Part shown: piece after piece, positions 32,457-64,000 of the stretch
Layout: each line of letters opens with the position of its first letter
Position numbering within the stretch: the stretch's first letter is position 1
DNA from: Plicaturopsis crispa FD-325 SS-3
Lineage: Eukaryota; Basidiomycota; Agaricomycetes; Amylocorticiales; Amylocorticiaceae
DNA: 64,000 nt
Assembly: GCA_000827205.1 (NCBI GenBank)
Contig: KN832555.1
Coordinates: forward strand, 918,893-982,892
Reading direction: 5' to 3'
Notes under the pieces: generated by a model
The model's input: the letters and a program-made list of their open reading frames with translations, nothing else
Told to the model about the DNA's origin: nothing
The model's database searches: none
Position numbers and translations under genes: made by a program

Positions 32457-35400
32457 TCATGCGTCTATCGGAGAAAGTAAACATAAGCAAAATATCGCAC
32501 AAGACCAAAGAGGCAGGAGACGCACAGTACGACGTGCCGACGAGCATGGTTCCGAGGGCTTGTATCTGATCTTCATCGAATGCTAGCTGGTCTTTATGCC
32601 AAGTGTCCTACATAATGAAGACGACGTCAGCTCTTCCGTTTCTCAATGCCAGAATCATTACTGCTTAGCATAGCCAGCAGCGTTATATCTTAGACAGAAC
32701 GGATATGCACCTGATGTGTCTGTAGGGCAGCAAAGGAAATGATGAGCCCGATTCACCATGTCCACAGGCAAAGAATAGCCCACCTTCTTGAACTCAGAAG
32801 CACACTTTCGGATCGTCGTCGATATAGGTGGGGGGTCCGTGGCGTGCGGGGCTAGGACTGTGGAGAGATTGAAAGTCAAAATCATGGCTCATGAAGTTAG
32901 ATCTCATATCGCAGATCAGATACGCGTCTTTCGCCTCGAGCCAGAGATGGAAGAGACAGCGAGGAGGAGGAACGGACGCTGAAGTGCTCGGGACGTCATA
33001 GCAAGACAACATAGACATACCTTCTGTAAGACTAGGCATCCACGGCTCCACCGAATATGGGAAACTTTCGATAAGCGCGCAGATCCCAAGGATAGCACTA
33101 TGCAGGGCCCGCAGGGCCTCTGCGTAGCCGGCCTGCGTTCGCGGTGGAAGCTTCACCTTTCGCGCAAGCGCCACGAAGCGATTCTACATAGACGTTTGTT
33201 AGCATCGTGGTAGAAATTAGGCTGCAGGGGCTCAGTACCTTGAGTGGTACAATGCTCTGCCTCTGCGAGCACCGCACGACCCCCGAGAGTGCCTTCGATG
33301 CCATCTCCCGTACTTCAACGTTCTCGTCTGCAAGACACTCCAGGAGCACGTCCATCACTCGCGAGACACCATCTGGCGTGATGGTCAACAAATTCCGGTA
33401 AAAGAACACGACGAGCGCAGGCAATGCATGCAGACGGATGCGCCAAGACTGCGTGTTCTTGTGGTCAGTAATGCTGCATAAAATTGAGAGGCATATACAG
33501 GAATCGAAAGAGGGCTTACAGTAGACGACTTGATCGCGTTCGCAAAATTTCCAAGGATGACGTGGACGTGCTCGGGTGGGGGTGTGACAGCAGAAATCAC
33601 GTACAACACAGCGGAGCTGTATGCTTGCAGGTCAGAGCTGTCGTTTAGTTCAGACATCTCTAGGATCTCCGGCCTGCGGAAGAAGCGATCAATAACGCAG
33701 TTTACTTTGTATGAAGTGTAGCCACGCACATCAAAGGTACGACGTAAGGGAAAACCAGACATGCTTGCGCGCTATGCGAGGACACCCAGATCCATTGCAG
33801 AACTAACGGAAGAAGGATAGGAAATGAGCACAACAATGGCCTTCGGTATGAAAAGGGTGCACATACGGGTAAGCCCGACTTTGTCGTACTGCCATGAAAT
33901 TTAAGTGACCAACCAAGAATATTCTGGACGGACGTTGACTCACCTCGGACTGGCTGACGCGGGGAGGAGGAAGTCGTTCGTCCTTCCACTTGGGCAGCTT
34001 GCGTTGAATCTCATTTATCCGATCGATGTATGGTGCCTCCCTGAGATCTTGTAGGTCAACTCATGGCCAGAATCAGAGAAATCATACGGGGGGCGAACCG
34101 AATATGCAGGGGATCTTTCTCGTCTTGGCACGCCAACAGGAAGGCCTCTGCAGACGGATACCACGGCTGCCATTGGCCACTGATAATCATGGATAGATTT
34201 TGCGCAATGTGCGCCCGAATCTGTTCAGGCGCCGTTAGATGGCAATGCCACCGATTTCTAATACACTATGCGCACCTCGGCATAGGTAGTGTCGGCGTTG
34301 TCCAAGAACAGGTTGACGTATTTGCTGGCTTGAGGATTGATGCGGATGCCGACGCAATCGACGTATATCGCAAATATCGAGAGCGTCTTGCTCACTGAAA
34401 AACAGTCATCAGCCTTCTGGTGCAGCAGTTGTCTTGCATCACTTACTTGCAAATGCGGAGTCACCGTTGAACTCGAGGGGCAAAGCCAATATCCAGTCTA
34501 CGAGCGCTGGCGTGCGTCGGGGATCACGGTCGGAGAGCTGATACTGTATTGAATGATCAATACAGTGAACATGTATTGCATCCATACAAACCTACACTGA
34601 TTAGGGTCTCCCAGAACATGATGGTGTCGGGCTTGATCTGGGCTAGAATGCGGTCTAGCCGTGCGGTAGTCCATGACCATAATTTGTCCGACAACTGCTT
34701 GGGCCAATGCTTTGACCCTTTATGCAGGCGGTCAGCGCGAAGAAAAAGGCGTATATGCACCATTACACACCACGTAGAACGCCGCCTAGGAATTCTGCAC
34801 CGGCTCGTTGCTTGAATCTGTCCGCGTCGAACAATAATGGTTCAGCTACGGCAAGCAAGTCCTCGAGGATTTCATCCTCAAATGTCTTGGCTATAAGATC
34901 ATTCAGCTAGTGTAAACCGCTTTTGAGTCGTCAAGTACTCACCTAATGTTCGAATGAAAGTTACGTTCTCGTTCCGTAACTCCGTCACACCACCATTCCT
35001 ATTCGATTCCTGCCCCCACAGGAGTGCCAGCCTCGAGAAGTAGCCCTCATGCTTGATGCCCTGCAAGGTCGCTTGTAATGAGAGTTGCGATTCTGGTTCC
35101 CACTGTAGAGGAGAAGCGCCCTCTTGCACATGAACATAAGCTTTGACGGTTGGCGTCCACGCAAGGAAACCTGTCGGTATCTTGTCAACATAAAGTTGTC
35201 TAAACAATACTCATGTTAGGCCTATACACTAACTGCATGTGCATAGCACTTACTCTGTGGCGTCGCTAACAGGGCGCTCAAGGCTTTTCAAGAACTCGGC
35301 GGGATCGCCGACGGGGATTTGGCGTTGAAGGGGGTTTTTCCATTCATCCAACCAGAGCTCGTCGTGTGTCTTTGCGTACGTTCTAACTTTCACGAATGCT

Positions 35401-38400
35401 AGCAACTTGGTGACAGCCCTGCAGGATGAGTTTAGATGTTATCGAGACGTGAATGTTATCTCCCCAAGAGGACATACTTCTGTGCGTAGACCCTGATCGT
35501 CGGCTGCGGACTAGTAGTGTGCTCCGTCAAAAACTTGGAGACCTCAGGTGACGCCGGAACGTCTCGCCGGAGCAGACCGTTCAAGAACCTGGTAGCCATT
35601 TGGACATAACGCCACTGTTACGGAGCCAATCGTTAGCATTGCTGCGTAAATGTTACGGAAAGAAACGTTACATGTGTCTGGGGCCGCGTTGCAATCTCGA
35701 GGATCGATGAGACCTGAGAACATTGATCAGTCAGGGGACAAGTCAAGCTATGGTTGTTCCGTTACAGTCTCAGCGTAAACGCGATTGCGTCTGGCTACGC
35801 GCACAGGTGCTTTGCTCAGAGCCTCATTGAGGAGGTTCTGATCAACGGCAGTATCTGAGAACTCTGACAGCAGGACGAGTAAGGCCTCGTCTACGCCAGG
35901 AGTCTCCTCGATGTAAGCATCAGTGTGAACAGCCTCCTCGGTGAGATGAACAATACAATCTTGAGCCAAGCCGCCAACGAGCTTTTGGACAGAAGGCTAT
36001 GAATGTGAAATTCGTATAATCAGCTGAGATAGATAACAGATCGTAAAGAGGCCTCACCTTCTCCTCGTGTTGGCATTCAAGTAGAGAGGTAAGATAGCGC
36101 CCGTGGAAGTTTTGATCTACACACATCTTTTAGTGCTGCCATAACATCGAGCAAGAGCGACATTACCGGCCAGCGCGTACGCCGCTAAGTCCTCCCGTAA
36201 GCATGCATCATATGATAGATGTATCTCCACGTACCGGTCCCTTTGTTCCATAACACGTACAGAGCGCCCTTCAACCGGTCAGGGTCATTCCCCTTGGCTA
36301 GGGCATCGAACAATGTTGGCAATGTGAATCTCGTCGATCGTACGTAGTACTATGGGAGTCATTAGTCGACGAACGTACATACTAGGAGCAGTGAATGACG
36401 CACTCCGCAGATGTTATGTAGAACAGCTTGGGTATGCCTTTCAAAAGTCCTTCAGCAATATCCGGGTCCGGATAACTTTTGCAGCTCACCGTCGGACCCT
36501 GGTGTATGGCGAAAGGGAAAACTCGACGATATCCTCAAGAAGCTTATCATCAAGAGCCGATCGACGACGGTATAGGGAATGCATATAAACACGGCCAGTG
36601 TGATACACCTGCGCGCGCTTGATGAAAACATATCGCGAATTGGTTTTCTGTCTCGACCAGGAGCGATTGAGGCTTGAACAAAGGATATTAGTACGACTCC
36701 ATTATACTGATATAGCAGTTGCAAAGCACTCACTCTCTGGCTTGAGTGTAATTTTTCTGCAGGTTAGTGAACGCAGCTCTTGTGCAGGCATACTCGAGCA
36801 GGTAAGTGTCGATAGCTTTAGCAACCCCCAACACCGCGTCTATATGGTCCTCACCCCCAGCACTAGTCCGTAACGTCGTAGCTGCACGATGGACTACGTT
36901 ACCAAACCGTGTGCGATGAGCGACAATCCGTTGATAGCGAGGGTCTTTCGGGTCAGTGAGCGTAAACCCGGCTTTCACGTCCAGAGCCTTGATAAGGAGA
37001 CCATCGGACTCCGTGTCTGCGTTCATGCACGGGTTGGCGACCTCCTTGTCCTGCTCCTTGTAGATGGTAGGCAGTCCGCTCCATATAGACCTACAGGCCA
37101 AGAGATAACTGCAGCACTGAGGTGTCAGACATTGGGATGAGATACAAAGGGAAAGAGAGCTCACCGACAGAAATCGTTACGAGCCACATTGTCCCACTGG
37201 CCCGGCACATCAAGTAAAGCCTCGATCTTGTCTAATGTCGGAGAAGCGACCTGGTCAAGAATCTCTAGTACAAATGCGATCTCCTCGTCGCTGGGGACTG
37301 CATGATCTTGGTCAGTAGGAAATCCCAAACCGAGGAGCCAACGCTTACCGTGCCACTCGACTTTGACATCTTTTGCTTCGTACAAATGACCCCAGTATGT
37401 ATTGTGGTCTTTATCGAAAGCTAGTGATGTTGAATGTGAGTCGCCCACAGCGGCAACAGCCTCTTCTCACTTACCAGGGTCATCCCACTCTTCGGTATTC
37501 ATGAAGCGATTGTTGAGGGGATAGATGCCCGATAAGATGTGCAGAATGCGACTGAGTAGCCGTCCTGTACCACTGTAACCTCTTTCGCTCTTCGTTTTGT
37601 CGATCAACAAAGTAACAAGACCCATTACCTCCGACTTGTGTTTCAATAACTATACAGGTCGCTCAGTAAGAAGACGACGAATCACGAGAAAAGGCTGCAC
37701 CATACCGAAGGGGAGGCGCCATCGCAGCCTAGACAACCGCGAAGAATCACCATATCTGAACGCACAGTCAGTGGTTGATGAGCGAAATCATCCCATAGGC
37801 ATACTCACTCCAGTGAAGGGTAGTGTCGGATGGAACGGCATCATGTGTGGACGTTGTCCTGATGCTCGAAGCACCGTGCTTCAGCTCTTCCTTGATCTGG
37901 CCCAAACAAAACGGCAGGAACCGCTCAATGGTCTGCTGTGGCCTCACGCGCGCTAAGCACGCCACGAGCTGCCCGAAAGCCTTCACCGCATTGGACTTTG
38001 CGTTCGTCGTCGCGTAGTCGTAGACGAGCTTGAGCACGAGGTCGAATAGCGCGTCAGAGAGATGGAGGCAGACAACGTCGAGCATGTGCTTAATCGATTT
38101 GAGCACGCTCTCTTCTTGCTTGCCACCCGTCTTGTTGTTCTTGCCGCCCTCCTCGGGAAGATTCTCGTAAAGCGCCAGAACACGGCGGAAAAGAGAGGTC
38201 ACCCAGTCTCCATGAAAAGTCAGCTACTAGTGCATCGGCGAATAAACACACTTACCCGCGAAGCTAGCGGTGCTATCCCTCACGAGGGTGCGTTCCTCGT
38301 CCCTGCTAAGTACGGGAAAGTTGCCCTCAGTGCCATCAGGCAAGCGGGTATCGTCCCCGTCGACCTCCATCATCTCCACAGCAGTCTCGTCCGAAAATGC

Positions 38401-40586
38401 CAGGCCGCTCTGGTGAATAGACAAGTCTCCGACCTTGATATGCTGCACGCTAGCGACGATGAACATCGTCGCGCATATGGTCTTCACCGGGTCGTTCAAG
38501 TCGATGCCGGGAATGCACAGCTCCAAGAGGGGGACGACGTGCTTCTGCCCGCCGACCCAGATCTTTTCGCTGACGAGCGGCAGGCTGATCCCGCTGAGCA
38601 TGCTGAGGACGGCGGTAGTGCGATGCGTCTCGTTTACGACCTCTAGGCCGCCATAGGCGCGCTCGAGGAGCTCGGGCATGATAAGCTTCGGCTCGAGGAC
38701 CGCCATGGCCCGCAGCGCCGCTTGTGCGTACCCCATGGAGAGAGGGTCCTTCGAGAACATGGCGAGAAGCGCCGGTGTTCGTAGGCAGGTAACAAGCGCC
38801 CGGCGGATCGTCGGCGTCAGTCGTTGCGTCTGAAATGTTTTAGCACAGATAGCTGCACCAGAATGACGAGCTTACGACGGGGGTCTTGCACGATGACTGC
38901 TCTTCCTCGTGCCATCGCTTAGTGAACTCGGTCACCAACCGGTGCAGAAAGCTTGTGAGCTGTGATAAATGCATCAGCGTCGGACTGATAAGATTTCTTC
39001 ACAAACGTACATTGAGGGTCCAGGGCCCGGAGTTCGATGGATGGAAGAAGTTCTCTGTGCTGGTGATGAGTCGATCCAGCGAGTCCAGCGATTTAGAGCC
39101 TGCGAGATATCCCGAAGCCTGTGCTAGTTTGCCGTCCGTCGACTTCGAGGACGATGGGAAGTCCTTGCGGACAGGCCCGTCGACAGACATCGAGTAGACG
39201 ATCATCTTTGCGATTGCGTCTTGATGACAATTAGTATGAATGGCCAAGTGGAGGGCAGCAGGAACATACTGTGTCGACTGATGGTCTTCTTGATTCGGCG
39301 AGACTCACTATCCGACATGGCGTCAGCATGGCCTGCAGTCGTGCTCGAGCCCTATGCAAAAAATTAGCAAGGAAACAAAATGAGTACAAAATCTCGTACT
39401 CTTGTCGCTCCCACAGGAACATCTGTAAGGTGTTAGAACGCCTGAAGTGCAGCGAGAGTGAAATTGCCTACTCATAGATGCCAGGCCTTTGCCGACTAAC
39501 ATCGTCCATTCGTCCTCGGACCATATTCCGACGTCCTTCCACGCTGTCCCGCCATCCTCGCCCGCATCACCTGCCTTGCCGGCAACGTGCTCCACCGACA
39601 GGTCACCTACAAGCTCCAACAGCCTGTCATCTATGACCGACGAGTTGAATGCCTCCCATAGCTTGAACAGGGCGGGCATGTAGAGATGCGTGTGAGTGGG
39701 CGGGAGGAACGACACGATCACCGGGACCATAGTGAGAATGGACTGCGATGTACTTTAGTATTTACTGCCGCAAGATCAAAACGCGGAACGCACCTCTTTC
39801 GTGAGAAGGGGCATGAACACGTCCAACATTGCCGGGATCTCGTCGGCAGGATAATACCTCCTGCACTGCTCCGCGACATACAGCAGGATATTCACCACAT
39901 TTCTGCTAGCGCAACCCGTAAGCCAGCCGTCATCACACGCATACACGAAATTCTTACGACGAGCTGCTGATGCGCTTCTTCTGCCAGAGCTCGCGCTGGA
40001 GGACGCGCCAGAGGGGCCGCCACGGCAGCTGCAGGTCCGCGACGTCGAGCTTGCGCTTGGCGCCGGCCTTGGACGAGAGCAGGCTCGTGAGGATGTCCGC
40101 CCAGTTGCGGATCACGCGCGGCTCGAGTCCGGGGACGAGGCACAGCTCGTAGTACAGCCGCACCAGCGCCGCGCGCGTCGTCTTCGGCATCGGGTAGCGC
40201 ATCAGCAGCCAGCTTCACGAGGCCGATGAGTGAAGGTAGGCAAAGGCACGGGATGGGGACGGGGGTGCTTACCACTGGAGCATGCCGTCCCAGGTCGTGA
40301 GCTGCAGCCAGCTGCGTGCCTTTGCGCACACGGCGATCTTGCCGACTATCTCCTCGAGCTTGGCGTGCATCTCCTCGATGGACTCGCATTCGTACGGGAT
40401 GGAGTCGAGGTAGGTCTGCAGCGTCGCGCGCTGCTTCTCGGCGTCCGAGAGCTCGGCGAGAGGCGACGGGGTCCCTCCGTCTTCAGACGAGTCCCCGATG
40501 GACATGTCGTCGTCGGCCATGTTTAGACCGTGTGTATCGGTGTTGCTGCCAACTGCTGAAGCATACATGTTGAGTATAGCGTCCAT
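32457..40586 (-). CDS. BLM10: proteasome activator BLM10/PA200, copy 1
   Basis: A giant HEAT/ARM-repeat solenoid that caps the 20S proteasome and opens its gate. The gene fills 8.1 kb with many short introns and would encode roughly 1,900 residues. Landmarks from N to C: YLDSIPYECESIEEM, LTTWDGMLQCWLLMRYPMPK, SFLPPTHTHLYMPALFKLWE, LITSTENFFHPSNSGPW, RAYGGLEVVNETHRTTAV, NLPEEGGKNN, YVDKIPTGFLAWTPTVKAY, GSKHWPKQLSDKLWSW, ENVEVREMASKALSG and ISTTIRKCASEFKK. The 3' end needs a 9-nt microexon (32711-32719, Thr-His-Gln) and an 8-nt last exon (32457-32464). Spliced, the protein ends SYYA, the HbYX motif that docks into the 20S alpha pockets. The start at 40586 is the first Met; a Met at 40520 (MADDDMSIG) is an alternative. 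The parts I read are open, so it looks functional. A diverged paralogue lies 17 kb to the right. Confidence 0.93.
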
Positions 40587-40878
40587 GAGTGCGATGAATT
40601 CTGTGTGATCCTGGGGGCTACGTACGTTTGGCCTTATATCTGGATTGCGATAGCTGACGAGTCCTTTAGCTTACGCGTCGTTTCGTTGTATGATACTATC
40701 AAGTTTGACGGAAAGCAGTATATAGCGGATGGAAAGCGGCGTGACTACGATTTCGACGACGCGTACGCTTTCTCGGTGTTTTTAGCGCACGCGTCTACAT
40801 CCGCGACTCAAATCCGACGTGCTGCGGTATTCAGTCATCCCGTCCACAGTGATAATGAAGCAGGCATTCATTATAGCG

Positions 40879-41965
40879 CTATACAAGGTGTCCACCAGAT
40901 CCCTCTAGTCTACCTACTACCGATTTCTTCAGCTGAAACAGGGCGGGAAACCATCAGCCACAGCTCGTGCTTCTCGGACTCAAATAAGCAGGAACTCACA
41001 GGGGGACTAGGCCCTTCGCCCTCAAAATACGACAGCATGAATTCCTCGGCAACCCACGTATTCTCCACAGTGCCCATGTCCCTGATCACGAGTGCCCGTG
41101 GGCGCGCGGGGTTCGGCGCAGTGAGCAGCACCTCCAGGGGCGCGTGCTTCGCCAGGGGGGCCGTTGGGAACATCGACTTGAACTGGCGCAGGGGGGATTG
41201 CACCGCGAGGGTCTCCTCGTCTGTTATGGTGTGGTTCTGGGTGGCGAGCCGGACGCGCGCGTGGAGGGAGCGGATGAAGGCGTCGCGGAGGTGGGTGTAC
41301 GATGTCGAGCGTGTAGGCACTGTGTCATAGCGTCAGAATGAGTGGGAAGCAGGGCTAGAGGGTGGAGACGCGCCGATTCGGATGACACATGCAGTGTTCC
41401 GGACTATGTACTCGATTTTCTCGTCTGGTGTTGCCGTTATTGGGATCTACGAGGAATTGAGGTGAGCACACTCTGGTAGACAGGTCTAAGGGACGCGCAC
41501 GTCGAGATTTGGGTTCGAGAGGTCCGCATAGAATCCAATGGAGTACACCTTAATCCCAAGGATGGACACCTTCCGCACACCAAGGCCCACCAAAGTAAAT
41601 TCCGGCAGTGGGAATTTCGACGCTATCCGCAAGGTTTTCGGAAAAGCTATCGACGTTTCGGGGTCGACAGATACTAGACATCATCCAATGCTGTTGATTA
41701 GATGTGAGGCCTTGACTGCAGTCGCAACAAGTATACACGCACCGTCCTCGCCGTCGATAGTAGCTTGGGGTGCATCCATGTAGATTTTGGAGTTCACGGC
41801 AATGCTCAGAGACGCCGACAGCAGGAAAGCGGCGCCCCATATCAGTGGTTTTACTGTTCGAGGAGGTGTCGGGGTCGACGCGTGAAGCATTCGGCGCGCG
41901 GAGAAGTTGACGGAACGACCGATAGCCAGCCTGCGTGCCGCGCATGGGCGCAAGACGGAAAACAT
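40879..41965 (-). CDS. AIM18: AIM18-like chalcone-isomerase-fold mitochondrial protein
   Basis: Resembles yeast Aim18/Aim46, mitochondrial proteins with a chalcone isomerase fold but no flavonoid role. The N terminus (MFSVLRPCAARRLAIGRSVNFS) is a clear presequence, followed by a membrane segment (LIWGAAFLLSASLSIAV). The fold is marked by FTLVGLGVRKVSILGIKVYS, IGFYADLSN, then TRSTSYTHLRDAFIRSLHAR and FMLSYFEGEGPSPP. The last exon, after a GTGAGT donor, encodes LKKSVVGRLEGSGG and a stop at 40879. About five exons. One intron (41320-41373) appears to use a GC donor (GCGCGT) rather than GT, since only that keeps IRIVPTRS in frame. Molecular activity is unknown. Confidence 0.82.
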
Positions 41966-42397
41966 GGCGACTGGGGAAAAGACCGCAGTAGCGCGAGAAT
42001 TTGAAGGGAAACAGCTGTGGTCACAGTGGCAAGCAAAGTATTGTCCGGTATCGAGGACAAGTCGAGGACGGAAGAGATTTGCCTTGGTCTCGTCGCGGTC
42101 GCGTCCAAGTCTCGTCCCGAGAACTTCGTAGCCGTTGTTTGGGTTGCCCGTGCTCAGCCACCGGCACCAAACAACGTCTCCGAAAGATCATGGAGGCGAG
42201 TCAGAAGTTCCTCACGACGACCTCGAACCTTGCACACTGGCTCAGGACACTCGGACGACGCAACTGGGAGATACGCATGGCTAGCTGCTGCATACATTAT
42301 GATAATCTAGAGAAAAGGCGGTACAACTACAACTGGTGCACAGTACGACAAACATAATCATAACGGACTCCGAAGCGGGATCGAGAACGGCGCACGC
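41966..42397. other. intergenic, AIM18 promoter side
   Basis: This separates the start of the AIM18-like gene from the 3' end of histone H3. No gene seen. Confidence 0.45.
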
Positions 42398-42990
42398 TCA
42401 GCTCCTCTCGCCGCGCAGGCGGCGGGCGAGCGCGAGATCCTTCGGCTGGATGGTAACGCGCTTCGCGTGGATGGCGGCAAGGTTCGTGTCCTCGAACAGC
42501 GACACGAGGTACGCCTCCGCGGCCTCCTGCAGCGCCATGACGGCGGACGACTGGAACCGCAGGTCGGTCTGCACACGGGTCAGCGTCGGTACCGAAGAGG
42601 AAGGCCTGGAGCGTGAGTCACCTTGAAGTCCTGTGCGATTTCACGGACGAGGCGCTGGAAGGGAAGCTTGCGGATGAGCAGCTCGGTCGACTTCTGGTAG
42701 CGACGGATTTCACGGAGGGCGACGGTTCCAGGGCGGAAGCGATGGGGCTTCTTCACACCACCGGTCGCGGTCTGCAACATGGGAGTCAGGAGTTGTGCTC
42801 GACGACGACGGGGGTCGTGGATGGCTACTCACGGCGGCGGTCTTGCGCGCAGACTTGGCAGCGAGCTGTTTACGCGGGGCCTTGCCTGAGGAAGACCACG
42901 ACGGTTAGACTGGGTGTCAGGAGATGGTGGCAAGTAGAGCAGGTACGCACCTCCAGTGGATTTGCGGGCTGTTTGCTTGGTGCGGGCCAT
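42398..42990 (-). CDS. H3: histone H3
   Basis: Core nucleosomal histone H3. The spliced product starts [14 protein letters not shown], with Lys4 and Lys9 in canonical contexts, continues [17 protein letters not shown] and [20 protein letters not shown], and ends RRLRGERS. Three introns interrupt it: after STGG, after KTAA, and after AQDFK (GTGACT donor). The length of about 136 residues is normal. Histone H3 is often paired divergently with H4 in fungi; no H4 is next to it here. A TATA box sits about 100 bp upstream. Confidence 0.97.
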
Positions 42991-43085
42991 CGCGAGTTAA
43001 GATGTGGGAAATGGGGGCAAATAAAGGGCAAGTGGGAGGCTGTTGGTGGTAAGGAAGAAAGCGCCGCTGCACGAACGGTGCGCTC

Positions 43086-43093
43086 TTTATATA
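43086..43093 (-). promoter_or_regulatory. TATA box upstream of histone H3
   Basis: TATATAAA on the minus strand lies about 96-103 bp upstream of the H3 start codon, fitting a strong S-phase promoter. Confidence 0.5.
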
Positions 43094-43319
43094 GGCGATT
43101 TGAGACTCAGCCACGGAGTCAACAAACGAGGCGCGTAACGCGCAAAGTACCAAACGCGGGGGCATGTGACTTTGTTTATCCCCCAGCTCGTCTACTTAGC
43201 GTACGCGTAGGCTCAGCGCTCAACGACAACAAGTGCTGAAAAAGTATTGTACATAGTATCCCAATAATTATAGCACTAAGTTATACAGCAATAAATTTTG
43301 GATGGAATCCCAAAGAATA

Positions 43320-44912
43320 TCATCCTCCTCTCCCTCGATTCCCCCCTCTCCTCCGCCTGTTTCTTCTGCGCCCTCGGGAGCCACTGGCATCAGCTACCGG
43401 CAGATAGCCGTACGCTTCCACGACCTGGTGCAGAGCAGCAGGTGGAGGACCGACAGCCGCTGGGACGACGGGCGCCGGGGGAGGCTGATAGTCGCCGTCG
43501 TCCTCGGAGTCTCCATCTGGCACAAGCCATTGCTCGTCCTCGTCGTCTACCCATACGACGCGATCCCGATGACGGGACTGCGGGCGCGTGGGCTTTGGTT
43601 TCGCTGCAACGCGTGCGGCGCTCTCCTTTTTCCACGTCCTGTTTTGCCAACATGAGCTGAGGGAGAGGGATAGCGGGGAAAGGCATACTCTTTCCGTTCA
43701 CTCCAGTCCTTCATCTTCTTCCCGCCATCGCGCCACTCGTTGTCGCCGTTGGCGACCATGGCGCGTATATGGCGCTCCACGGTATTGTCTACCGCAAAGT
43801 TCGGTATGAGGGGTGAGGAAGTGCTTAACTTGGCGCGGCATGTCGCGCAGGTTGGTGTGGATTTCTGTATAAAATGAGTGAGGGGCAAGGGGCGATGTCG
43901 TTCGACGAACATTCTGTGAGATCCAGGAGTATCCACAAGCGCCGCAGAAAGTGTGGCCACACGGGTTCCCTAGATGGGCGGCTACACTGAGTAGGATACC
44001 TATGAGTGTCATAAGAGGTCCCAAAATAATCTCGACTGACAAAATATCACAACATCTACATGAATGCACATTAGGAACACTCTAGAAGAAATTTTGTGCC
44101 GGGACACCCACATTGGACAAGTCATCTCATCTTCGAAGCCTTCTAACATCGTCCGCACGATGTCGCTATCGTTGGCCTTCATCTTCCCTTTCTTCACAGA
44201 CGTGGGCGATGGCGCAGCGGGGGATGTAGCGGAACGCTTGCGCGGCGAGCGTCGCGAGGTATCGGATTCATTTTCGATGTCCTTTAATTTCGAGGATATG
44301 GATTTGGGAGGTGGGGTCCTTGGGCGCACGGCTGTACGCCAATTCGTGTTGGACATCGCATTATTTCTACGGGGTTTATTACTCACCTAGTGGTGGCGGA
44401 GAGGGTAGCGTCTGAGCAGCAATGTGAGCTGTTTGTTGAGCATTGTGTGCAGCAGCAAAGTAGCGAGATGGTATGAAGCCAGAGGTTCCTACAGGCCCAG
44501 TACATTTCCGCAACACACAACATCTGGGGAAATTGACGCACCCATGCCTCCACTTGTAAATATTTCTGCAATTCCATTGCTCCCAGATGCACCTTTAAAT
44601 CCACTATAAAGCCCCAAACCAGACATCGACTACGAACCACTCACCATTCATATCTCCCCTGACCGCCCGATCCTCCAAGGCATCTACCTCGGCGAGGAAA
44701 TCAGCATCGAGCGTATCGTCCCCATAGTCCGACGACGCAGAGCTGTGTGTCTGGACACCAACCGCCTCGGACTCAGCTGGTAGGGCTGTTGGTGGTGGCA
44801 ATGATGATGTCGGCACCTCCGCCGCCGCCGCGAGATCTGGTACGGCGTCGAAATCGAACCCGGAAAAGTCGTCCGGGAGCGCGTCAAACTCGTCGTCGCT
44901 GGCCGTCGCCAT
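43320..44912 (-). CDS. RING-finger protein, probable E3 ubiquitin ligase
   Basis: A nuclear-type RING protein. The acidic N terminus (MATASDDEFDALPDDFSGFDF) is followed by several short exons, a basic Ser/Pro/Lys-rich region (RSPRKRSATSPAAPSP), and a C3HC4 RING. The RING is spread over three exons: EMTCPICCDIF, VAAHLGNPCGHTFCGACGYSW and TPTCATCRAKL. After it come VDNTVERHIRAMVANGDNEW, a Lys-rich stretch, and a C-terminal Arg/Gly tail ending in RGRGG. The intron just upstream of TWKKES is best read as about 50 nt, using the acceptor at ACAG. The RING ligands are all present, so E2 binding and ligase activity are expected; substrates are unknown. Its start codon lies 183 bp from the divergent V-ATPase gene. 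Confidence 0.82.
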
Positions 44913-45095
44913 CTCGTATATCTCCTGCGTATATAGATACCGATGCGACTCGAAGTCCGCAGTCTGTGTGCAAAGCAGTTGGTGGTTCAGAACGAAGGCT
45001 CGATTGAGCAGCGCGTACTACAGACTCCGCCACGTGAGCGTTCCCCGACCACGATTTCCTTTCCTGGCGACTGCTCCTCCTCGACACCGACAACG

Positions 45096-45680
45096 ATGGC
45101 GCAGAGCTTCAAAGACCGCAATTTAATCGCAGTCATTGGCGATGAGGTGCGTATTTGCGTATCTGCGGCCCTAGCAGACGGAAACTAATGCACGTACGAC
45201 GCTGTAGGACTCGATCACTGGTCTATTGCTCGCGGGCGTTGGGCACATAAATGAGCACCAGAAGAAGAATTTCCTCGTTGTCGATAGTAGTGCGTAGTCA
45301 GACCTATCTAATATGTGTACGAATCCGCTGACGTGACGCTGCAGGGACACAGGTGTCCACCATCGAGGCGTCATTCCAGGAGTTCACGGAACGGAAAGAC
45401 ATCGCCATCCTCCTCATTAACCAGCATGTATGTACATATGCGCCGGCTTACCGCACATGTTCTAACTATGCAGTAGATCGCAGAGAAGATACGGCCGACA
45501 GTGGACAAATACTCGCAAGCCTTCCCCGCTCTACTGGAAATCCCCTCGAAAGACCATCCATACGGTGCGCCCAGCCTTATTAATATATCCTCATGCACCT
45601 TAATATTTACATCGCCGCGCTCAGACCCATCCAAGGATTCGGTGCTCAAGCGTGTGCAGAAGCTTTTCGGAGACTCGTAG
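45096..45680 (+). CDS. VMA7: V-ATPase subunit F (Vma7)
   Basis: Subunit F of the V1 rotor stalk of the vacuolar proton pump. The spliced product of about 118 residues begins [20 protein letters not shown], continues [12 protein letters not shown], has [16 protein letters not shown] and ends RVQKLFGDS at the tag codon 45678-45680. Five exons with short introns (first donor GTGCGT after GDE). Length and motifs match the family over the whole protein. It is divergent from the RING gene and convergent with Tim21. Confidence 0.96.
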
Positions 45681-45928
45681 GGGCTCACTGCTGTCTTCCA
45701 CTGCTATTACTCGGACTATATTCAAGCACTGTAATTCATAATACATTGGCACGTCCATCGCCTGCCTCCATGGTTATCAGTGAGCGAACCTATCATGAGA
45801 ACCGCACAGTAGGCTCGTTTTCCCGCACGCCTGGTGCTCGCTCGACGAAGATTCGCAGTGGCGCTGTCCACCCTCGCGAGTCTTTAAATTGACGGTGAGT
45901 AACGTCGGATGCGGAGAAGAAGAGGATA

Positions 45929-50920: not shown

Positions 50921-50949
50921 GGTCTGGGTACGGTCGTGAGCCTTGAACA

Positions 50950-50956
50950 TTATATA
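50950..50956 (-). promoter_or_regulatory. TATA box of transposase gene
   Basis: TATATAA on the minus strand, 30 nt upstream of the chosen transposase start. It overlaps the upstream Met codon, which argues against using that Met. Confidence 0.4.
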
Positions 50957-51217
50957 GAAGGGAAAAATACATACAATATAGCTATTTCACGGGGTAAAAT
51001 GCACAGCTGGGTGTGAGGGAAGGACTGCGAGAGTTTGTGCAACGGGCGAGTGCAGCGCGATCACCTGACTTGCGGGTCCACGTTAGATTTGAAATATGGA
51101 TCTGCCTCCGAGGATAGCGACTTACCCTCATATATTGGCCATGCCGCTCTCTCCTTCGTTACGCCCACCACCACGCCCCCGTTGACCTTGAGTCTATCAG
51201 TACTCTCCCTGTGCACC

Positions 51218-52278
51218 ATGCCACCTAAGAGCAACTCACCATCTACGGCAGCCGCTGGTACGACTGTCTCAAGACGCACACGACGCACACAGGGCGGAGG
51301 ACGCGGACTCGGAGACCGTAGCAACGCGCGTGGAGGCGGAACCGGAGGAGGCGGAGGCGGGCGTGCAGCACTTGCTGGGCCTTCCAGGGCCGCGCAGAGC
51401 AATTCGGACCACGAAGAGGAGGGTGGAGAGGGTGCCGACGCGCACAGCGAGGCCCTCAAGAAGGCGCTTGCCGAGGTCGCGGAGCTTCGAGGTGCGGGGT
51501 GTCCCTTCTTTCCCTTACGAGTGCTAAGCTGGATCCTAGCACGATTGGACACCGAGGCGACCGCTAGGAGAGAGGCTGAAGAGAGGGCGGTAGAGATAGC
51601 CGCCGAGAAAGCTGCGAACAGCGCCGACCACGACGAGCCAGAAGTGATACAGGTGATCAAAAAACCGAAAGGCGAGGCAGGAAACTTGAAGAACGGCTAC
51701 CGCCTGATCACAGCGATGAAGTTGGATGGGTGCGAGAAGGACGAAGAGGAGTACGCGTCGATCTTGGTATGTGGGTCCTGGGAAGAAATCCTCGAGATCA
51801 ACGTCTGTTCCCCGTGACGTAACTTGGCTGATAATCAACGTTCAGCGTTCCATCCACACTCACGTTATACAAGCCAACTTGGACTTCACCGCCGAATATC
51901 GTAGCCAAGATGACGAAGCCCTCGTCAAAGTCTTCAAAATGGTGAGCAGAAACCTTTGATTTCATAGCTAGTACTTACCGATTACTGTTCTGACAGACGC
52001 GGAAGGTCCATCCGTACACGACAAAGCAGCGATTTCCCGCGTACTGGCCGCTCGCCGACATGGTCAAGCAATACCTGCGGAACCACCGCAAGTACATGGT
52101 TTCCGAGGGCCGCCTCGCACCCAGCGCCAGGTCAAGAAAGCGTCGCGCAACGATCGACGCGCGTGCGAGCGGGCGGAATGTCCGTAGGAAAACCAGGCAC
52201 ATCGACGAGGAGGAGGAAGGTGGCGAGGAAGACGACGAGGAAGGATCTGGTTCGAATGAGAGCGGTGGTGAAGCTTAG
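51218..52278 (+). CDS. accessory gene of the CACTA element, unknown function
   Basis: The second gene of the transposon, diverging from the transposase. Four exons join in frame from MPPKSNSPSTAAAG to NESGGEA. The N terminus is low complexity, rich in Gly, Arg and Ser. It is followed by a probable coiled coil (RLDTEATARREAEERAVEIA) and a short conserved-looking region (FTAEYRSQDDEALVKVFKM, HPYTTKQRFPAYWPLADMVK). The C terminus is basic (SRKRRATIDARA) and then strongly acidic. A nuclear, DNA-binding helper like the second protein of plant CACTA elements is a reasonable inference, but I see no homology that proves it. Confidence 0.7.
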
Positions 52279-52870
52279 AGTGTAATGTCTGTCATTTCTG
52301 TTATCTTTCTTGTGTTCCTACCCCTCCTGTAACGACTTTTAACGACCTCTAACGACCGTATACGAAATGTAATGATTTATAGCTCGAACCGCGAGGGGTA
52401 CCCGATTGTCCTTTACAGCCAGAGTAACTCTATTGAACCAATAGTTCGGGTGAAAATTCAATCACTCACGGACAAAGCTGAAAGCGCTATGTCAAAATGG
52501 CCGCTCAGGAGTGAGTCAAAACGGACATCCAAGGAGCTAAAGGCGCTTGGTTTTACATAGAGCCGATTCACTCATGTACATAGTGAATATTTTGAAATCA
52601 AGTCACACCTGCTATGCGCGAGAGTCACAGTAGCGAAGTCTCAGGGTGATTACCCCGGTCAAAATCGCTCTGTCTGGGTCGCATAGTGACCGTGTCTGAG
52701 GATTTCGTACTTTCGTAATTGTCAACGCCGCGTGTCTAGAATGAGCACCGAAGGTCATATCGCCGCAGGGCCTTCCTGTATCCAGCCCCCAAGGCTGTTG
52801 CGGTCTCAGACCCTTCAAAACTGTCCGATAGGACTGTGCATCTTGAATCCTCCTGTATAACTTCCCCCAG

Positions 52871-54815
52871 ATGCACATAACGTTCAACCCACCTCTGGGC
52901 GAGCACGTAGTGGCTGCGGTGCCGCCCGAGGCGGAGGATGTAGAGCTCCACTTCACGGCGACGTTCGGCTCCCGTAGAGACTACGACGAATTCAAGGGCG
53001 CTGGCGCAAGGCTTGAGGTGTGGACAGAGCTACAGGTCGGTGCGAAACCGGTAGGGCAGTGGGGGGAGCTGGCTTTCCCGTATGAGCCCCGTGCGGTAGA
53101 CGACCTAGGATCCACAGACATCGACATCGGAAATACGTTCTCTCTTTTACCTGCGGATGGCTTAGGCGGCACGAGCCCCGATGAACAGCTTACGCTGAGC
53201 CTGACGTTCAAGTCTCGCCTGTACGACCGCACGCAGGCCGGGTATACGTACCGATTGATATACCCCCACGGCGTAGAATGGTTGGGGGAGTTCGGGCGAG
53301 ACGGGGTGCTCCTGTTTAAGCGCGAGGACCCTCGCCTAGCTCTCAGCGAAGGCTGGCGGTCGCATTCAGGCGCATCTTATGAATGGCAGTCGACACCTGC
53401 TCAGGTCGGCCTGGACCCAGAGCATGAAGTAGCCAAGCTATCCACTGAGTTTGAGTGGTATATTTGGGCTGTAGGCGACAGCAGGTAAAGCCCATTGCCC
53501 GTATCTCCTCTGGCACTTGCTGATCGGGGTCTCTGAATTGTGCAGTGTTCCTCGCCTGCACACCCTGGCAGATCCGTTCAGTGCGTGCGCTGCAGCTACG
53601 TTTATCCCACGCGCTCGCCATGGCCAAGTAGCTATACCGCAGCCCTTCGTACTCTCGGCCAATGAATCAGACGACTTCAACATCTCGTTGAGGCCCGACG
53701 GAGTGGTTGTATATACCAAGGACCGTAGTGGCATCCGTGCAGGAGGCTTGCGTCTACGACCACCACGCACCTCCTCCGATGGGGGACTTTCAGAAAACCA
53801 GTACGAGGCATTCGTCGGGGGAGCTACCAGCGGGTGCGCTACCCATGCTTTCATCTACGATTCTGCGGATCCTTCGCGCGGGACGCTAGGGACAGGCACA
53901 GTCATACCCACATGTGCAGTGGAGGCACCTATCACTTTAGCCCGCGTCTCTCGTTGGACGCTGTCTGCTCTCATCCATCATACATCCAACTTTGCGATAT
54001 ACTCTCGGGCAGCGTCTACCTTCCGATTCCTCGACAGCACCGAACCCTCTGAGGATATCGTGTTCGCTGTCGGTCCAATAGGCAGCCAGTTCGTTGTATC
54101 TCCCGCTCACGTCCTGAGCGGTGAAGATGCTGCATGGCACATCGCCATCTTAACCCCTCACGAAAAGCCGCGCTTTGAGGGAGGCTCGCTGTCTGTCTCT
54201 AGTGCGGCGAGGCCTCCTACGCCCCCTCCCACGCCTCCCCCTCCCGTCGCACCCTCACAATCCACAATCCCCATTGAGACGACCCGAGCGGAGCCGCGCA
54301 CGAGCACTGCGCTGACTGTACGCCCTAGCGTTCCTAGGAACCAGGTGCTGCGCTATATAATGCATATCCTCTCTGCGCTTGTTGTATTCCTGCAATCCGC
54401 CATTGTCGGTGCCATCCTCTACCCCTACGCGTCGCTAGCCAGAACACCCCGCAACGAAACAAACACGACCTTTAACGATGATGACGACGACGACGATGAC
54501 ACAGCGATTCCTCCACGCGAGGCGAATAGATCGGAGGAGCCGGTGACAGTGGAAGAGGAACCAGACACCTCAGATGCCACCAGCGTCCTCACCGAACCCG
54601 CGGCGGAGAAACCTGCGCTCCTCGTAAAGATGCATGCCGGGGTTGCCACCGTACTCTTGCGGTCGGACAATGTGACTGCGTCCCTCCATGGCGTCAATAT
54701 CGAGCGCTATGGCAAGCCGGTCACCCCGCGGGTGACGAGGGGAGAGGGATCGACGTTCTTGATGGAGTTCGATTTCCCCGAGGGCGAGGGACTGTTGAAA
54801 ATATCGCTGGTGTAA
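52871..54815 (+). CDS. hypothetical protein with C-terminal membrane segment
   Basis: Family not recognised. Two exons: MHITFNPPLGEHVVAAVPPE to AVGDS, and VPRLHTLADPFSACAAATFI to the end, joined over a GTAAAG..GTGCAG intron. The N-terminal region is rich in beta-strand-like stretches (LHFTATFGSRRDYDEF, YTYRLIYPHGVEWLGEFG). A Pro-rich linker (PPTPPPTPPPP) precedes a hydrophobic helix (YIMHILSALVVFLQSAIVGA). After it come an eight-Asp run and a globular C terminus ending LLKISLV. It could be a tail-anchored membrane protein. It lies 183 bp beyond the right end of the transposon, so the insertion may sit in its promoter. Confidence 0.7.
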
Positions 54816-55045
54816 TCCAGGTAAAATAAGCGGAGGCAACTGTAGTCGTGGCTCTATCCTGCGGCTAAGGGTGGCCTGTAAAATGTAAGTGTTCTGTTCC
54901 AACACCAAATGATAGAAGATATGTATCCACGATCAACTGTTTGTCGTCACCAAAATACAATTGTTACACACGAGCTAGGACGATACATGGCGGCGCGGGG
55001 CCGCGCGGCACGATATAATGATACTTCAAGATGCTCTCTCTCTTT

Positions 55046-56120
55046 CTAGTCGATATCCATGCGTTCGCGTTCTCCGTCGTCGTCGTGTTGATGCTGCGTT
55101 CGACGATCTCGAGGAGAGCCGTATGCTGAGACAGACTGCGCGACGATATCGTCCAGCGCTTCCGGTGAAAGGTCGTATTCGTATCCACGAACGACTATCG
55201 CATATGCAGCTGGAACACGGACATCAACAAACCTGACACAACGGGGTTATAGAGCATGGAGGATTTACTGTCTTCGATTTTTTCTAGCGACTGGCCGGTG
55301 ACGGCCTGTTTCTTCGAGAGTTCTCGCACGTACGGCGTGAACCGCTCGAAATCTACGTCGTGGAATACGTTAGACATAATCGAGTCAAGTCCAGGGAGCG
55401 GCATCACCTGCTTTACACCGTCGGACAAATGCGCAAACATCGCTGGCTTTCGTGCGACCCCCTCTCCGAGCAATCCCTGTGATTGCGAACCGCATAAGCT
55501 CGCCAGTGAGGTCAGACAGCCCCAAGAGATAGTCGTCCATCGTTAGAGGGAAATACTAGAGCAGTCGCAATTAAGGTAAGCCGTCTAATTCAGCGCGAAG
55601 TCTCCGTGAGGCTGCTGCGCGTACGCACAGGGACGCCGTCCGTGTCTGCCACCGTGCTCTGCACATAGTTGAAAGGCACAAGGGATCCGTGTTGCAGATA
55701 ATATGCGAAACTCAGCGCTTCAATGTATTCCTGGAGGCCTGGTGAGACTTGTCTGTGGTGTCGCCAGAACCGATCGCCTTGCAGCTCTTCCTTCATCTCA
55801 GAGTAGAAGGTCTGAACCTCGCGTAGCTTTGCATACGCCTCGGAGGCTGCGCGCTCGGCAAGGACCTGATCAGATTCATCGCTTTCTGTGGTCACGATGC
55901 GATGAAGGAAAAATATGGTTTTCTTCGAGATGTTGGTGATATCCCGACTGGTCTGTAACAGCGTCTTCGTGAGCATGGAAGAAATGCCTCTGAGGTAGAA
56001 GCAGACCTTTATGAGTCTCTCTCTTCTGTCGTTGAACTCGTCTAATTCCTGGCGAAATCCGTCGAAAAAATCTAACACAATGTCCTTCGACGGTATTGCC
56101 TCAGATATGCCGGTCGACAT
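55046..56120 (-). CDS. TRAX: TRAX (translin-associated factor X)
   Basis: Partner of translin in the C3PO ribonuclease complex, which cleaves small RNAs and tRNA fragments. The start MSTGISEAIPSKD leads into FFDGFRQELDEFNDRRERL, then TSRDITNISKKTIFFLHRI. The metal-binding acidic residues of the TRAX active site appear intact: Glu-Tyr-Ile-Glu in LQEYIEALSFAYYLQHG, and Asp-x3-Glu in SDLTGELMRFAI. The C-terminal part has LSKKQAVTGQSLEKIED and RGYEYDLSPEALDDIVAQ, ending MDID at 55046. Six or so exons. An upstream in-frame Met (56183) is possible. Translin itself is not in the window. Confidence 0.88.
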
Positions 56121-56365
56121 GGGTACGCAGATATTTTTGAGTGCGGGACCCGCCGGGTACAAGATGGTTTGTTGAGAGATCAAGACTCAAGAGAGATATG
56201 AAAGTCAGAGTGAATTACATATGAAGTCCGCCGCAGACGGTAGACCCAGGCCGCATCTTACGCCCGTCGTCTTCTGAACCGTCGTTGTGCTGCCGTGCGT
56301 TTCGCCGTTCTACCCCTTCTGCGCCTTGTCTCTCTACTTGAACGCTCGGAAAGCTTGCTGCCATC

Positions 56366-57342
56366 ATGTCTTTCGCTCCTAGACCAGGCTGCCCCATGTG
56401 CGGCATAGTCTCGACGGCCGCACATGCGACTCACAATTCACCTCGCTCGCCATCGTTTCCAATAGGGTCTACACAACCAGAAGTGCTCTGGCGAGACGAT
56501 AATTTCACTGCATATCGAGAGAAATTGCACCCAGTGTCTAGCAAGGGACATATCATCATCGCATTCAAGTTTGTCTATTTCTTCGATGCGGAGGTAGAGT
56601 TTACTGACAACGTGTCCGCAGTCTGCACGTACCTTCAATATACACGCTTGTGTGTAGCCCGTAGTTTCGCGATATCTCTATAGTTATTGATGCATGTGCT
56701 TTCTTTCAGTCGTCCAGCGACCTGCCGCTCCTGGTGAACATACGGAACCTCGCCAACCGCCTCCTCTCTGGCTTAGCGACACGACCGACCCGCTCCTCAG
56801 ACCTAACGTCGCCAACAACACCCGTCCCGACTACGCAACTCACGCACTTACCTGTTGACTCCGAATTCCACATTGGCTTCATTACGCCGCCGTTCAAAGA
56901 TAGCAAAATTCCGGTGACAGACCATCTACACGCCCATGCCTACATTGGCCCAGGTGATCTAATGGGATGGTGGAGGGGCATTGCATACGGGCCCATGGCG
57001 TGGTATCCCATCGATGACCTGGTTGCAGAAATTCGGTGAGTCTGCGCATACCCTGTTGTTCAATATCTCCGGCTTACCTCCGTATACAGGGAATCCGTGT
57101 CGAACAATCGAGTAAAGTCGGGATACCAAAATCGACGCTCGGCGCCTATCGATTCAGTGCCTCATGCGGGAGCACGAGCGGGCACTGCGAGTGGCGTGGA
57201 AGTGACAGAACCTGGGCTGGCGAATCCTGACCTCGAGAGTGGCGACGGGAGTCCGACGAGCCTGCGACCACAAACGCCCGCCACGCCCGCCCGAAGCACT
57301 ACACCACTGAACCAAATCCCGGCACTCAACTTACGCGTATAG
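56366..57342 (+). CDS. HIT-like (histidine triad) protein
   Basis: A histidine-triad-type nucleotide hydrolase or transferase. Four exons: MSFAPRPGCPMCGIVS with a CxxC pair, through SKGHIIIAF; a short exon with NLHVPSIYTL; then SSSDLPLLVNIRNLANRLL to the triad DHLHAHAYIGPGD (His-x-His-x-His); then ESVSNNRVKSGY and a low-complexity Ser/Thr/Pro tail. The triad is followed by a Trp-rich segment (MGWWRGIAYGPMAWYP), seen in a fungal HIT-like subgroup. The short second exon was found because only it keeps frame between AF and SSSD. The substrate is unknown. It is divergent from TRAX, with 245 bp between the starts. Confidence 0.82.
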
Positions 57343-57602
57343 GTCACGATATAAATCGATGTTTTCTTTCACTCTTCTGCGGTTGTTTTCTTCTACTTTA
57401 CTGAGCCAACTCCGGGACTTTCACAATGCGCAAATTTTCATATACCTACTGCAGTCTCCGTAACATTGCTCCGTCGTACTGGTTGTGTGTGGAAAGCGGT
57501 GTATATTTATACAATGCGCACGCTGCGCGCGTACCCAGTGGTGTCCTTGTTTTATATCAGAGTATACATTATTATCCTTAGTATTAAGAGTCCCGCAGTG
57601 CG
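57343..57602. other. convergent 3' UTRs
   Basis: Short AT-rich stretch between the 3' ends of the HIT gene (+) and BLM10 copy 2 (-). No gene seen. Confidence 0.5.
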
Positions 57603-60600
57603 TTAGGCATCTAGAGTAGATAACAAGCGAGTCAGCTCGAGAGTGAGAAAGAGATGAACGAGGACACTGACAGTACGAGGAACCTGTCAGTAGGGTAGAC
57701 AGTGCAGCTAATTGATCTTCGTTAAAGCGTTTTGAGTCTTCATGCCAAGTGTCCTGGTGCGTCTTCTTGAAGTTACTAGCACACCTGCGCACTGTCGTAG
57801 ATATGGGCATCTAGAAACTGAAGTTAATGACGGATTGACTAGTGATACGAATACGGACGTACGGGATCGTAAGTATGGTTAGCTAGAACATCTGTCAAGA
57901 GTTCGGGCATCCATGTTTCGACAGTATATGGGTAGCTGTCAACTAGCGCGCAAAGGCCGAGAAGAGCAGCATGACGCTGGCGTATGGCCTTCGTATAGGA
58001 CGCCGACTGTCGAGGGGGTATACGACTATTCTTCGCTAGTCGGACAAACCGATCCTGAGAGCGATATATGAGCCCAATGAGACGTAACACCGTAATTACA
58101 AACGCACCTTGAGGGTGATGACGCTACGTTTTGGCGAGAGCCGTATAATTCCTGAGAGCGTCCTTTTTTCGGATAGCGTAAGTTATTAGACGCAGAAAGA
58201 AGCAACAAAAGAACTCACGTAGCTGCCATCTCACGAACCTCTACAATCTCATCGTCTAAACATCGGGACAGCACTTCCAATATCTCTATGACTTTACTCT
58301 CCGAAATGAGAGGCATTTGTCTAAAATAGAACACTGCATTGCGATCAGCCAGGAACGACGTGCTCAGTGAAAAGGGAAGATACCTTGAACGAGAGGTAAC
58401 GCCTTCAAGCGCACTCGCCACGACTGCAGATGCTGGTCAGCTTACAAAACCAAGGCTAGAAAAGTAAACAAATCATACAGATGATTTCCGAATGGACTCG
58501 AAAATTGCATCCAGCATCGGGTCCACCAGAGACCGAGGTGGCGTCACTCCACACATCCGTACAAGGAGAACATTAGCAGCGGAAACAAGCTCGTCGTTAT
58601 CGTTGACTGCATGCAAAGTGGTGAGCGAATATGCATCGGAGACATCTGCGACGAAGGAAATACCTTCAGTGAAACGGAAAAGCTCGGGCTACAACGGCAC
58701 TCATTTAGTCGAGGATAGACGTGAAGATTCGCAAATTAGCTTACCACCAGCGGGAGAATATAGTCATACGCAGAGATGGCTCGCGTGTGATGGATCAGCT
58801 GGAACAACCATTTGCAGACGGTGATCCCGACCCTATCGTAAGTCGATTGGAAAGCGCGGACGCCAGGAATACGCTCGGCTCTCCATGTCTTGAATTGGTT
58901 CACCAGCTTGAGCACTCTCCCCATGTGGTATGTGCCGTGCATCCCCATGATGTCGAAGTCGAGTGGGGAAGTGCGGCACTCCCTCACAAACACCCCCGCG
59001 ACGGGTTTTGAAGGGCGTGGGCACCACTGATAGACGATTCACGTACGCGCGCCATCGGCATGGGTGATCAAGGTGTAACGCTACAAAGGACGTACCTTGA
59101 CGGTGTCAGAAAATGCCAAGATATCTCCTACGGAGGCGCGAACCTGCATATGCATCCAGGTCAGTTCGACTGGTATCATAATGTTGACATTACTCACCGT
59201 GTCATGTTCGCCGTGGATTTCCGACCAACAACGTTCCACTGTTGTATCTGTCCAAGCAGAGAATTTCCAACCAAGCTCTTGGTAAAAGCTCTCGAACAAA
59301 GAAATGATCTTGGTAGCGTCAAAAGACAATTCGCTGTTATAGTCAGTGGCCAAAAATTCTTCCATAAGATATGTGGCCAACGGCTGCACTCGACGAGGAT
59401 CTGTATGATGGAAGACATACTGGTTGCGAATGCTCGAATGAGCGTCATGCTGGTAAACCTACTCAACTGAAACACACCTCCAGAAACGTCGACCATACCA
59501 GTGAGGTGTCCGGTTTGATATTTTGCCCGAGGACTTTCTTGATGAAGGGCGTGATCCACGACCATAACTTTTGTTGAGCATTTGTCGGCCAATGCTTTGA
59601 ACCTGTCGCGTTTGAATGTATTAGCCCTCCACAGCGCTGAAGTGTGCACTGTTGGTACCTCCGATCACGCCTGCGAGTAGTTCAGCAGCAGCACGTTGCT
59701 TGTCCTTTTCTTTAGATTGCAATAACATTTCGAGCGTGGGCCTCAGTGCTTCGAAAGGTGCGTCATCTAGAATTTGAACTATGGCATGCGCCATAATTAA
59801 GCAAAATATAACAAAGGCAGGGCCGAAAGACTCACAAATTGACTTGACATTGGCTATGTTATCATCTGTCACACCATTCTCGTGGTTTTCCTCCGACAAG
59901 TAAGTCGAGAGGGATGTCCAATATGACGCATCTGTGGCTGCTTCACGAAACACCGCGACAACGCTTTCAGAGGTTGGCTCCCAGGGCTGAAAGGTCGATT
60001 TGATGGGATAAGGAGGCAGAAAGAGTTCGAGTGTGCTGCTCCATGCAAGCCATCCGCTCGAAATTTTATCGCAGTACAAACTAATCGCACCGGCATGTTA
60101 GCAGTGGACATGCATTGGATAAATATACAGGCACTTACGGCTCCCGCTGCTGTATATTGGGAGGGATCTTGAATCCCTTCAAGAATTTCGTAGTGAGGGT
60201 GTGCAATGGTTCCACAGAAAGACTACATTTGAGAGGGTTCCGACACAATGCTTGAACCAAATCACTCGGTGTGTGGCATAATGTGCGGAGCTTTATGTTG
60301 CGACTCGCTTTCATGATGCCTCGTTGAGCATACTGTTCGCCGTAACAATCAATAAATATGCCTCGATCAAACTGAACCAGAAACATACATAGCGCTAATT
60401 GGAGAAGGAGAAAGTCAGCGCACAGCAAGGCAGAGATGCAAAGAGAGACGTACAATGCTAGGATGACTGTCGTGGGTCATTTTTAGAAAATAGCGCATGT
60501 GCGCCGGAGACGGCGGAACATCGCGTCGAAGAAGGGTTCTCAGGCATCGTATGGCGACGATACTATAACGCCAATGGGTGCGCGGTGATTGAGCGATATC

Positions 60601-63600: not shown

Positions 63601-64000
63601 GGAGCGCCGTTAGGAGGGGAGGCGGGTTCGATGGGCTCAGTATCCAATGTCGCGGACATCGGAGCATCTAGACTCGTCAGATCACCAAACTTGATGTATT
63701 GCGAGACCTCTATCAGAAAAGACGTGGTGCACAACTGCACCCGTATCAGCACGATGTATACCGCATTGTTGTACTTGAACTCACTGTCTTGGACGGGTCG
63801 TTCTAGAGTGTCGTCTTAATCAATTCTGATCGGTCTACCACAGACTGCACGTACCAAATCGATTCCTGGGATTAACAGGTGCAAGATTGGCACCAGATGT
63901 TTCGCGCCAGGATAGTAGATATCTCTGGAAACTATCGCCGGTACAACGGCTCCCAGCGCCTTGATCACAGCAGTCGTACGTTGCGTCTATGAAAGATGTA
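57603..64000 (-). CDS. proteasome activator BLM10/PA200, copy 2 (partial, runs off right edge)
   Basis: A second, diverged BLM10/PA200 gene; its 5' part lies beyond 64000. It is colinear with copy 1. Matching blocks are LLENLPEEGSDGATGG (copy 1 NLPEEGG), NVRSNAVRGMHELVGCL, DDRMKGALWTL, YCDKISSGWLAWSSTLEL, SWRVRLKALPLVQVF, VREMAATTLSGIIRLS, ALVDSYPYTVETWMPEL and MPISTTVRRCASNFKK. Over the last 130 residues I judge about half identical to copy 1. It likewise ends SYYA through an 8-nt last exon (57603-57610) after a 61-nt intron, so the proteasome-docking HbYX motif is kept. The two introns around Thr-His-Gln in copy 1 are absent here. The exons I read from 57.6 to 58.5 kb are open, so it is probably a working gene rather than a pseudogene. 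Confidence 0.88.

Follow-up and report, generated by a model that had tools for sequence, protein, structure and literature searches.

The cellular role of Blm10/PA200 is disputed, and PA200 acts on acetylated histones. The human protein has been described as a HEAT-repeat dome whose C-terminal YYA inserts between the alpha5 and alpha6 subunits of the 20S proteasome, with the gate partly opened, and a second contact with the 20S is attributed to the loop T562-K574; acetyl-histone binding is reported for N1716/F1717 in human PA200 and for other residues in yeast (Guan et al. 2020, PMC7077846). According to Burris et al. 2021 (PMC8039559), yeast Blm10 outcompetes the 19S particle in binding to the 20S when its level is raised. 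A filamentous-fungal counterpart, likened to ours by description, is FgBlm10 of Fusarium graminearum, for which the sections of the paper on which we draw describe one gene, a conserved C-terminal YYX required to contact alpha6 of the 20S, and a deletion strain that is viable, grows without significant change and makes fewer conidia; according to the same sections, deletion of yeast BLM10 causes no global proteasome defect (PMC9499325).

On copy number, the portion of Fort et al. 2015 (PMC4453063) considered here states that the PA200 gene is unique in each genome where it was identified, and on the basis of this uniqueness proposes PF11919 as an orthology signature; Basidiomycota is mentioned once in the main text, for PA28. 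The PA28/PSME1-4 family, an unrelated family of activators, was also duplicated in chordates with several copies kept, of which one is described there as conserved and the others as fast-evolving (PMC4453063). The window analysed here, a 64-kb stretch of the Plicaturopsis crispa genome, holds two PF11919 genes where the rule would have one per genome, and so departs from the published statement of uniqueness; that such genes are single elsewhere, as the initial annotation held for yeast and mammals, agrees with Fort et al. as far as the consulted text goes, which counts a single gene for yeast Blm10 against the two found here. Our literature search, whose coverage left out most subscription journals, found no paper describing two Blm10/PA200 genes in one genome. 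The two genes and their C-termini are as follows.

32457..40586, minus strand: copy A, a Blm10/PA200 gene; complete-looking spliced model of 40 exons encoding 1932 aa
57603..63986, minus strand: copy B, a second Blm10/PA200 gene, of which the window contains the C-terminal three quarters; spliced model with 38 exons in the window
32457..32532, minus strand: C-terminus of copy A, S-Y-Y-A-stop, read from the DNA across the intron 32525-32465
57603..57678, minus strand: C-terminus of copy B, S-Y-Y-A-stop, read from the DNA across the intron 57671-57611

The gene models were made with a splice-aware gene finder and a protein-to-genome aligner, and doubtful joints were settled by reading the three frames. 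Copy A runs from an ATG at 40586-40584 to a TGA at 32459-32457 without an internal stop; its 39 introns measure 46-163 nt, with a median of 55. Copy B ends in a TAA at 57605-57603 and runs past the right edge of the window at 64000; its 1447 aa within the window are likewise free of internal stops and are split by 37 introns measuring 49-69 nt, again with a median of 55, and since its first residue matches residue 517 of copy A, about 516 residues should lie beyond the window. Its short, densely placed introns and a tnp2-type transposase, features typical of basidiomycetes, give the window a basidiomycete-like look. Every intron of both models is GT-AG, a result partly built in because the finder permits only GT or GC donors and AG acceptors. 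An ab initio run that made no use of homology recovers 29 of the 39 introns of copy A and 20 of the 37 of copy B; borders outside that run lean on the comparison of A with B or on reading by eye. The models also contain three probable micro-exons, one of 9 nt in A and two of 7 and 6 nt in B. That of copy A encodes Thr-His-Gln and lies near the 3' end of the gene (32608-33020, minus strand), between two of three introns of 163, 64 and 103 nt; the matching stretch of copy B has one intron, of 52 nt and in a different place. Along the 5' part of copy A (38256-40586, minus strand), GC3 starts at 0.88 (first 600 coding bases) and declines to about 0.57 mid-gene.

The models and Pfam agree with the initial annotation in placing two colinear BLM10-type genes on one strand. 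When reading-frame fragments of copy B were compared with the copy A region by tblastn, with opposite-strand rows discarded by script, 19 of the 25 same-strand rows listed were collinear along B; among the others, one fell in a collinear place but in another frame and five were off-diagonal (E 0.002-0.007). In a self-tblastn with fragments of at least 45 aa (E 1e-5), all 12 of the listed rows join A and B.

Judged by sequence, A and B belong to the Blm10/PA200 (PSME4) family and each is an ordinary member of it; what is novel is the retained old pair, not the individual genes. Copy A matches HEAT_PSME4_mid (PF16507) at 609.7 bits, HEAT_PSME4 at 51.1 and PSME4_C (PF11919) at 109.7, and copy B at 418.7, 89.9 and 116.3 bits, respectively. 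All of these exceed the curated Pfam cut-offs (22.5 bits for PF11919 and 25.2 bits for PF16507), and a HEAT character of both proteins is predicted from these matches. The PF16507 match covers positions 1-523 of the 524 in the profile for copy A and 119-523 for copy B, the remainder of which lies outside the window. PSME4_C is also matched by two C-terminal exons of each copy, and a phmmer search of the PDB with a single copy A exon leads to human PA200. Family members are single chains of about 1850-2150 residues (the PDB chains have 1843 in human and 2143 in yeast); copy A is modelled at 1932 aa, and 1447 aa are visible for copy B.

Human PA200/PSME4 (PDB 7naq, 8cvs, 6rey, 6kwx) has the same domains, and its YYA is kept in both copies. 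It is matched at 163 bits by the C-terminal 689 residues of A and at 191 bits by the C-terminal 701 of B, with about 26-27% identity (240 and 248 of 925 columns). Against yeast Blm10 (PDB 4v7o, 9d0t, 10gx), which also ends in SYYA, the C-terminal piece of A scores 84 bits and that of B 89, with about 23% identity (112 and 109 of 481 columns). The fungus differs from the human case in carrying two genes in one window, and N1716/F1717 of the human protein are kept in neither copy.

The shared SYYA, noted in the initial annotation, could be confirmed at the DNA level: given each model's last intron, the YYA (HbYX) motif stands at the very end of both proteins. That intron is in phase 1 and lies at the same place in both genes, splitting the codon of the second Tyr (T|AC in A, T|AT in B).

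Over the whole overlap the copies are identical at 540 of 1402 aligned residues (38.5%). Identity per 150-column block ranges from 24 to 44%, except in the final block (110 aligned pairs), where it rises to 62%, so that the earlier description of the C-termini as about half identical was roughly right. At fourfold sites (n=257) agreement is 0.237, against 0.252 by permutation, i.e. at chance level. A dN/dS comparison had been suggested; of its two terms, dN was obtained (0.64 by the Nei-Gojobori method, from pN 0.431), and pS stood at 0.795, a value from which dS is not computable. Synonymous sites without a trace of common descent, in proteins that are still alike, point to selection on both lineages. 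With human as outgroup, 83 changes are unique to A and 75 to B over 925 columns (p=0.52; 4/8, 18/15 and 61/52 in the separate segments), and with yeast as outgroup 39 and 42, respectively, over 481 columns. Among 99 positions at which human and yeast agree, A keeps 58 and B 61, with 50 kept by both and 30 by neither. Unlike the PA28 copies of chordates as described in the text at hand (PMC4453063), A and B show no difference in the relative-rate test. The best reading of these sequence comparisons is that both copies have long been retained under purifying selection.

Sixteen intron positions are exactly shared, among 31 in the overlapping part of A and 37 in B, where 20,000 random placements gave a mean of 0.29 and a maximum of 4. 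The homology-free run finds just 5 of these 16 in both copies, and the count of 16 is therefore partly model-dependent; even 5 is more than in every random trial. The chance-level fourfold sites and the shared introns uphold the old duplication proposed in the initial annotation, and from the sequences this duplication most likely took place inside fungi. Distances under LG+G are 1.25 for A-B, 2.42 for A-human and 2.32 for B-human; A-B is about half of A-human, but saturation and sparse taxa keep us from giving a date.

The 17 kb between the copies contain the following.

40587..57602, no strand: interval that separates the copies and contains unrelated genes (Pfam on model pieces, coordinates)
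41965-40919, minus strand: piece of a chalcone-isomerase-like gene beside copy A (Pfam), presumably AIM18-like
42398-42990, minus strand: histone H3, complete-looking, with three apparent introns (one piece scores 148.9 bits with Pfam Histone; frames read)
44912-44111: gene-model piece without a Pfam match
47110-46182: TIM21 (Pfam)
49201-50920, minus strand: reading frame of a tnp2-type (CACTA) transposase (Pfam Transposase_21, 90.6 bits)
53517-54815, plus strand: open frame of 432 codons, a model piece without a Pfam match at E 0.01
56108-55270: translin-family gene (Pfam)

Because unrelated genes lie between them, A and B are not a fresh tandem pair; their origin would be explained most simply by duplication of a single gene, with insertions or rearrangement afterwards. 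A recent segmental duplication or unmerged haplotype, which should show high DNA identity reaching the flanks, was considered and rejected, the 12 listed self-tblastn rows all lying within A and B. The initial annotation had named an assembly artefact as the outcome that would undo the pair, and such an artefact, or a pair of unmerged haplotypes, is scarcely conceivable given the 38.5% protein identity, the differing flanking genes and the finding of no direct repeat of at least 40 bases in 31000-64000; saturation of the synonymous sites argues specifically against unmerged haplotypes. Acquisition of one copy from another fungus by horizontal transfer would fit the difference in GC3 (0.63 in A and 0.54 in B, overlap only), an RSCU correlation of only 0.44 and the 21 of 37 introns of B that have no exact positional match in A. 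It is very improbable nonetheless, since the two genes agree in intron GC (0.461 in each) and in median intron length (55 in each) and have 16 intron positions in common. More weight, though still little, is due to the idea that one copy, B or else A, lacks its upstream part, has lately been silenced or goes unexpressed: the 5' part of B lies outside the window, and the GC3 of B is not only lower than that of A but just under the lowest of the other measured gene models (0.56-0.85, several of them rough), which may reflect lower expression. Against this, 1447 codons of B are open across 38 exons and unique changes are equal in number in A and B; open frames and equal changes are at odds with a long-dead copy in particular.

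A duplication that greatly predates the phylum, dating from before Ascomycota separated from Basidiomycota or fungi from animals, with losses elsewhere, is improbable but the most plausible of these other histories. It draws on the modest bootstrap of the A+B grouping in four-taxon trees (A, B, human, yeast), 65% with 676 columns and 69% with 468, and on p-AU values of 0.33 and 0.10 for the two alternatives with 676 columns, where the program warned of too few replicates. On the other side, A+B comes out as the best tree and bp-RELL (0.018) rules out A+human; the A-B distance is far below that of either copy to human, the introns are shared, and neither copy stands closer to yeast (of 676 columns, A has 157 identical and B 153). 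Counting against an equal rate in A and B, the branch of A is the longer one with 468 columns (0.82 and 0.60), though not with 676 (0.63 and 0.62). We favour a window that carries two complete-looking, anciently duplicated Blm10/PA200 genes, each most likely encoding a single-chain 20S cap, and give this reading a probability of roughly 0.75.

By analogy with the family, each protein would form a single-chain HEAT-repeat cap seated on the 20S alpha-ring, with its C-terminal Tyr-Tyr-Ala inserted between alpha5 and alpha6, and would help gate opening for ubiquitin-independent degradation or 20S traffic. The fungus may thus make two kinds of proteasome cap. Since Blm10 and the 19S particle compete in yeast, the two caps would be expected to compete with each other for the same 20S ends, much as the single yeast Blm10 does with the 19S. 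Whether they do different work is a weaker inference: that they are not interchangeable, and serve different conditions (the initial annotation gave growth stage or tissue as examples), compartments or substrates, we would put at slightly less than an even chance. The sequence differences between A and B are compatible with specialisation but no proof of it. One candidate for a difference in docking is the segment aligned to human T562-T572, which in A reads PEEGGKNNKTG, with two lysines, and in B PEEGSDGATGG, with none (weak profile alignment, hand-counted numbering). The main rival to separate roles is redundancy, with A and B making equivalent caps kept for dosage or by drift. The docking motif kept in both, the C-terminus as the most similar part of the proteins and the absence of a rate difference would all fit, but 24-44% identity in every other block together with saturated synonymous sites implies a long time for pure redundancy, and the charge differs in the segment aligned to the 20S-inserted human loop, weak as that alignment is; we regard redundancy as unlikely on balance.

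Put forward as a doubtful extension is a reading in which a whole basidiomycete clade has a pair of ancient PA200-type caps with distinct functions, which both dock by YYA but differ in the second docking loop and in the solenoid. The A and B caps would then sort substrates or compartments between two 20S-cap complexes, possibly with mixed A-20S-B particles. The pair may be restricted to one species or be clade-wide. Searches for relatives covered viral and prokaryote collections, so that their zeros say nothing on fungal distribution: part of B gave 6 pattern matches in viral contigs, and an alignment of the A and B C-termini gave 62 matches in genome contigs and 53 in viral contigs, none of them a relative. 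A fungus that keeps two diverged caps under long selection would offer a natural separation of Blm10/PA200 functions, the importance of which would be greater if the pair were clade-wide and functionally split.

A histone link through the H3 gene between the copies was considered and set aside, as proximity by itself is no proof and neither copy retains the acetyl-lysine residues of the human protein. At the positions of N1716 and F1717, which are residues of human PA200 and not a family-wide feature, A has S and Q, B has S and P, and yeast has K and E; acetyl-histone recognition cannot, for this reason, be transferred to A or B.

No tRNA was found in the window by ARAGORN (bacterial settings), and an Rfam scan of the window gave no match at gathering scores. 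Downstream of copy A lies a CCCH zinc-finger gene with two fingers (26517-29450, minus strand). A rough merged model at 7747-15054 (minus strand) contains a casein-kinase-2-like protein kinase (Pkinase, 167 bits) and two glycoside hydrolase 18 stretches, of which one is above the Pfam cut-off of 29.6 bits (43.5 bits) and one below it (26.2 bits, with a hand-joined query). Rough models on the plus strand correspond to a cytochrome P450 (900-3299), a major-facilitator transporter (20127-22580) and a choline/ethanolamine kinase (24329-26092).
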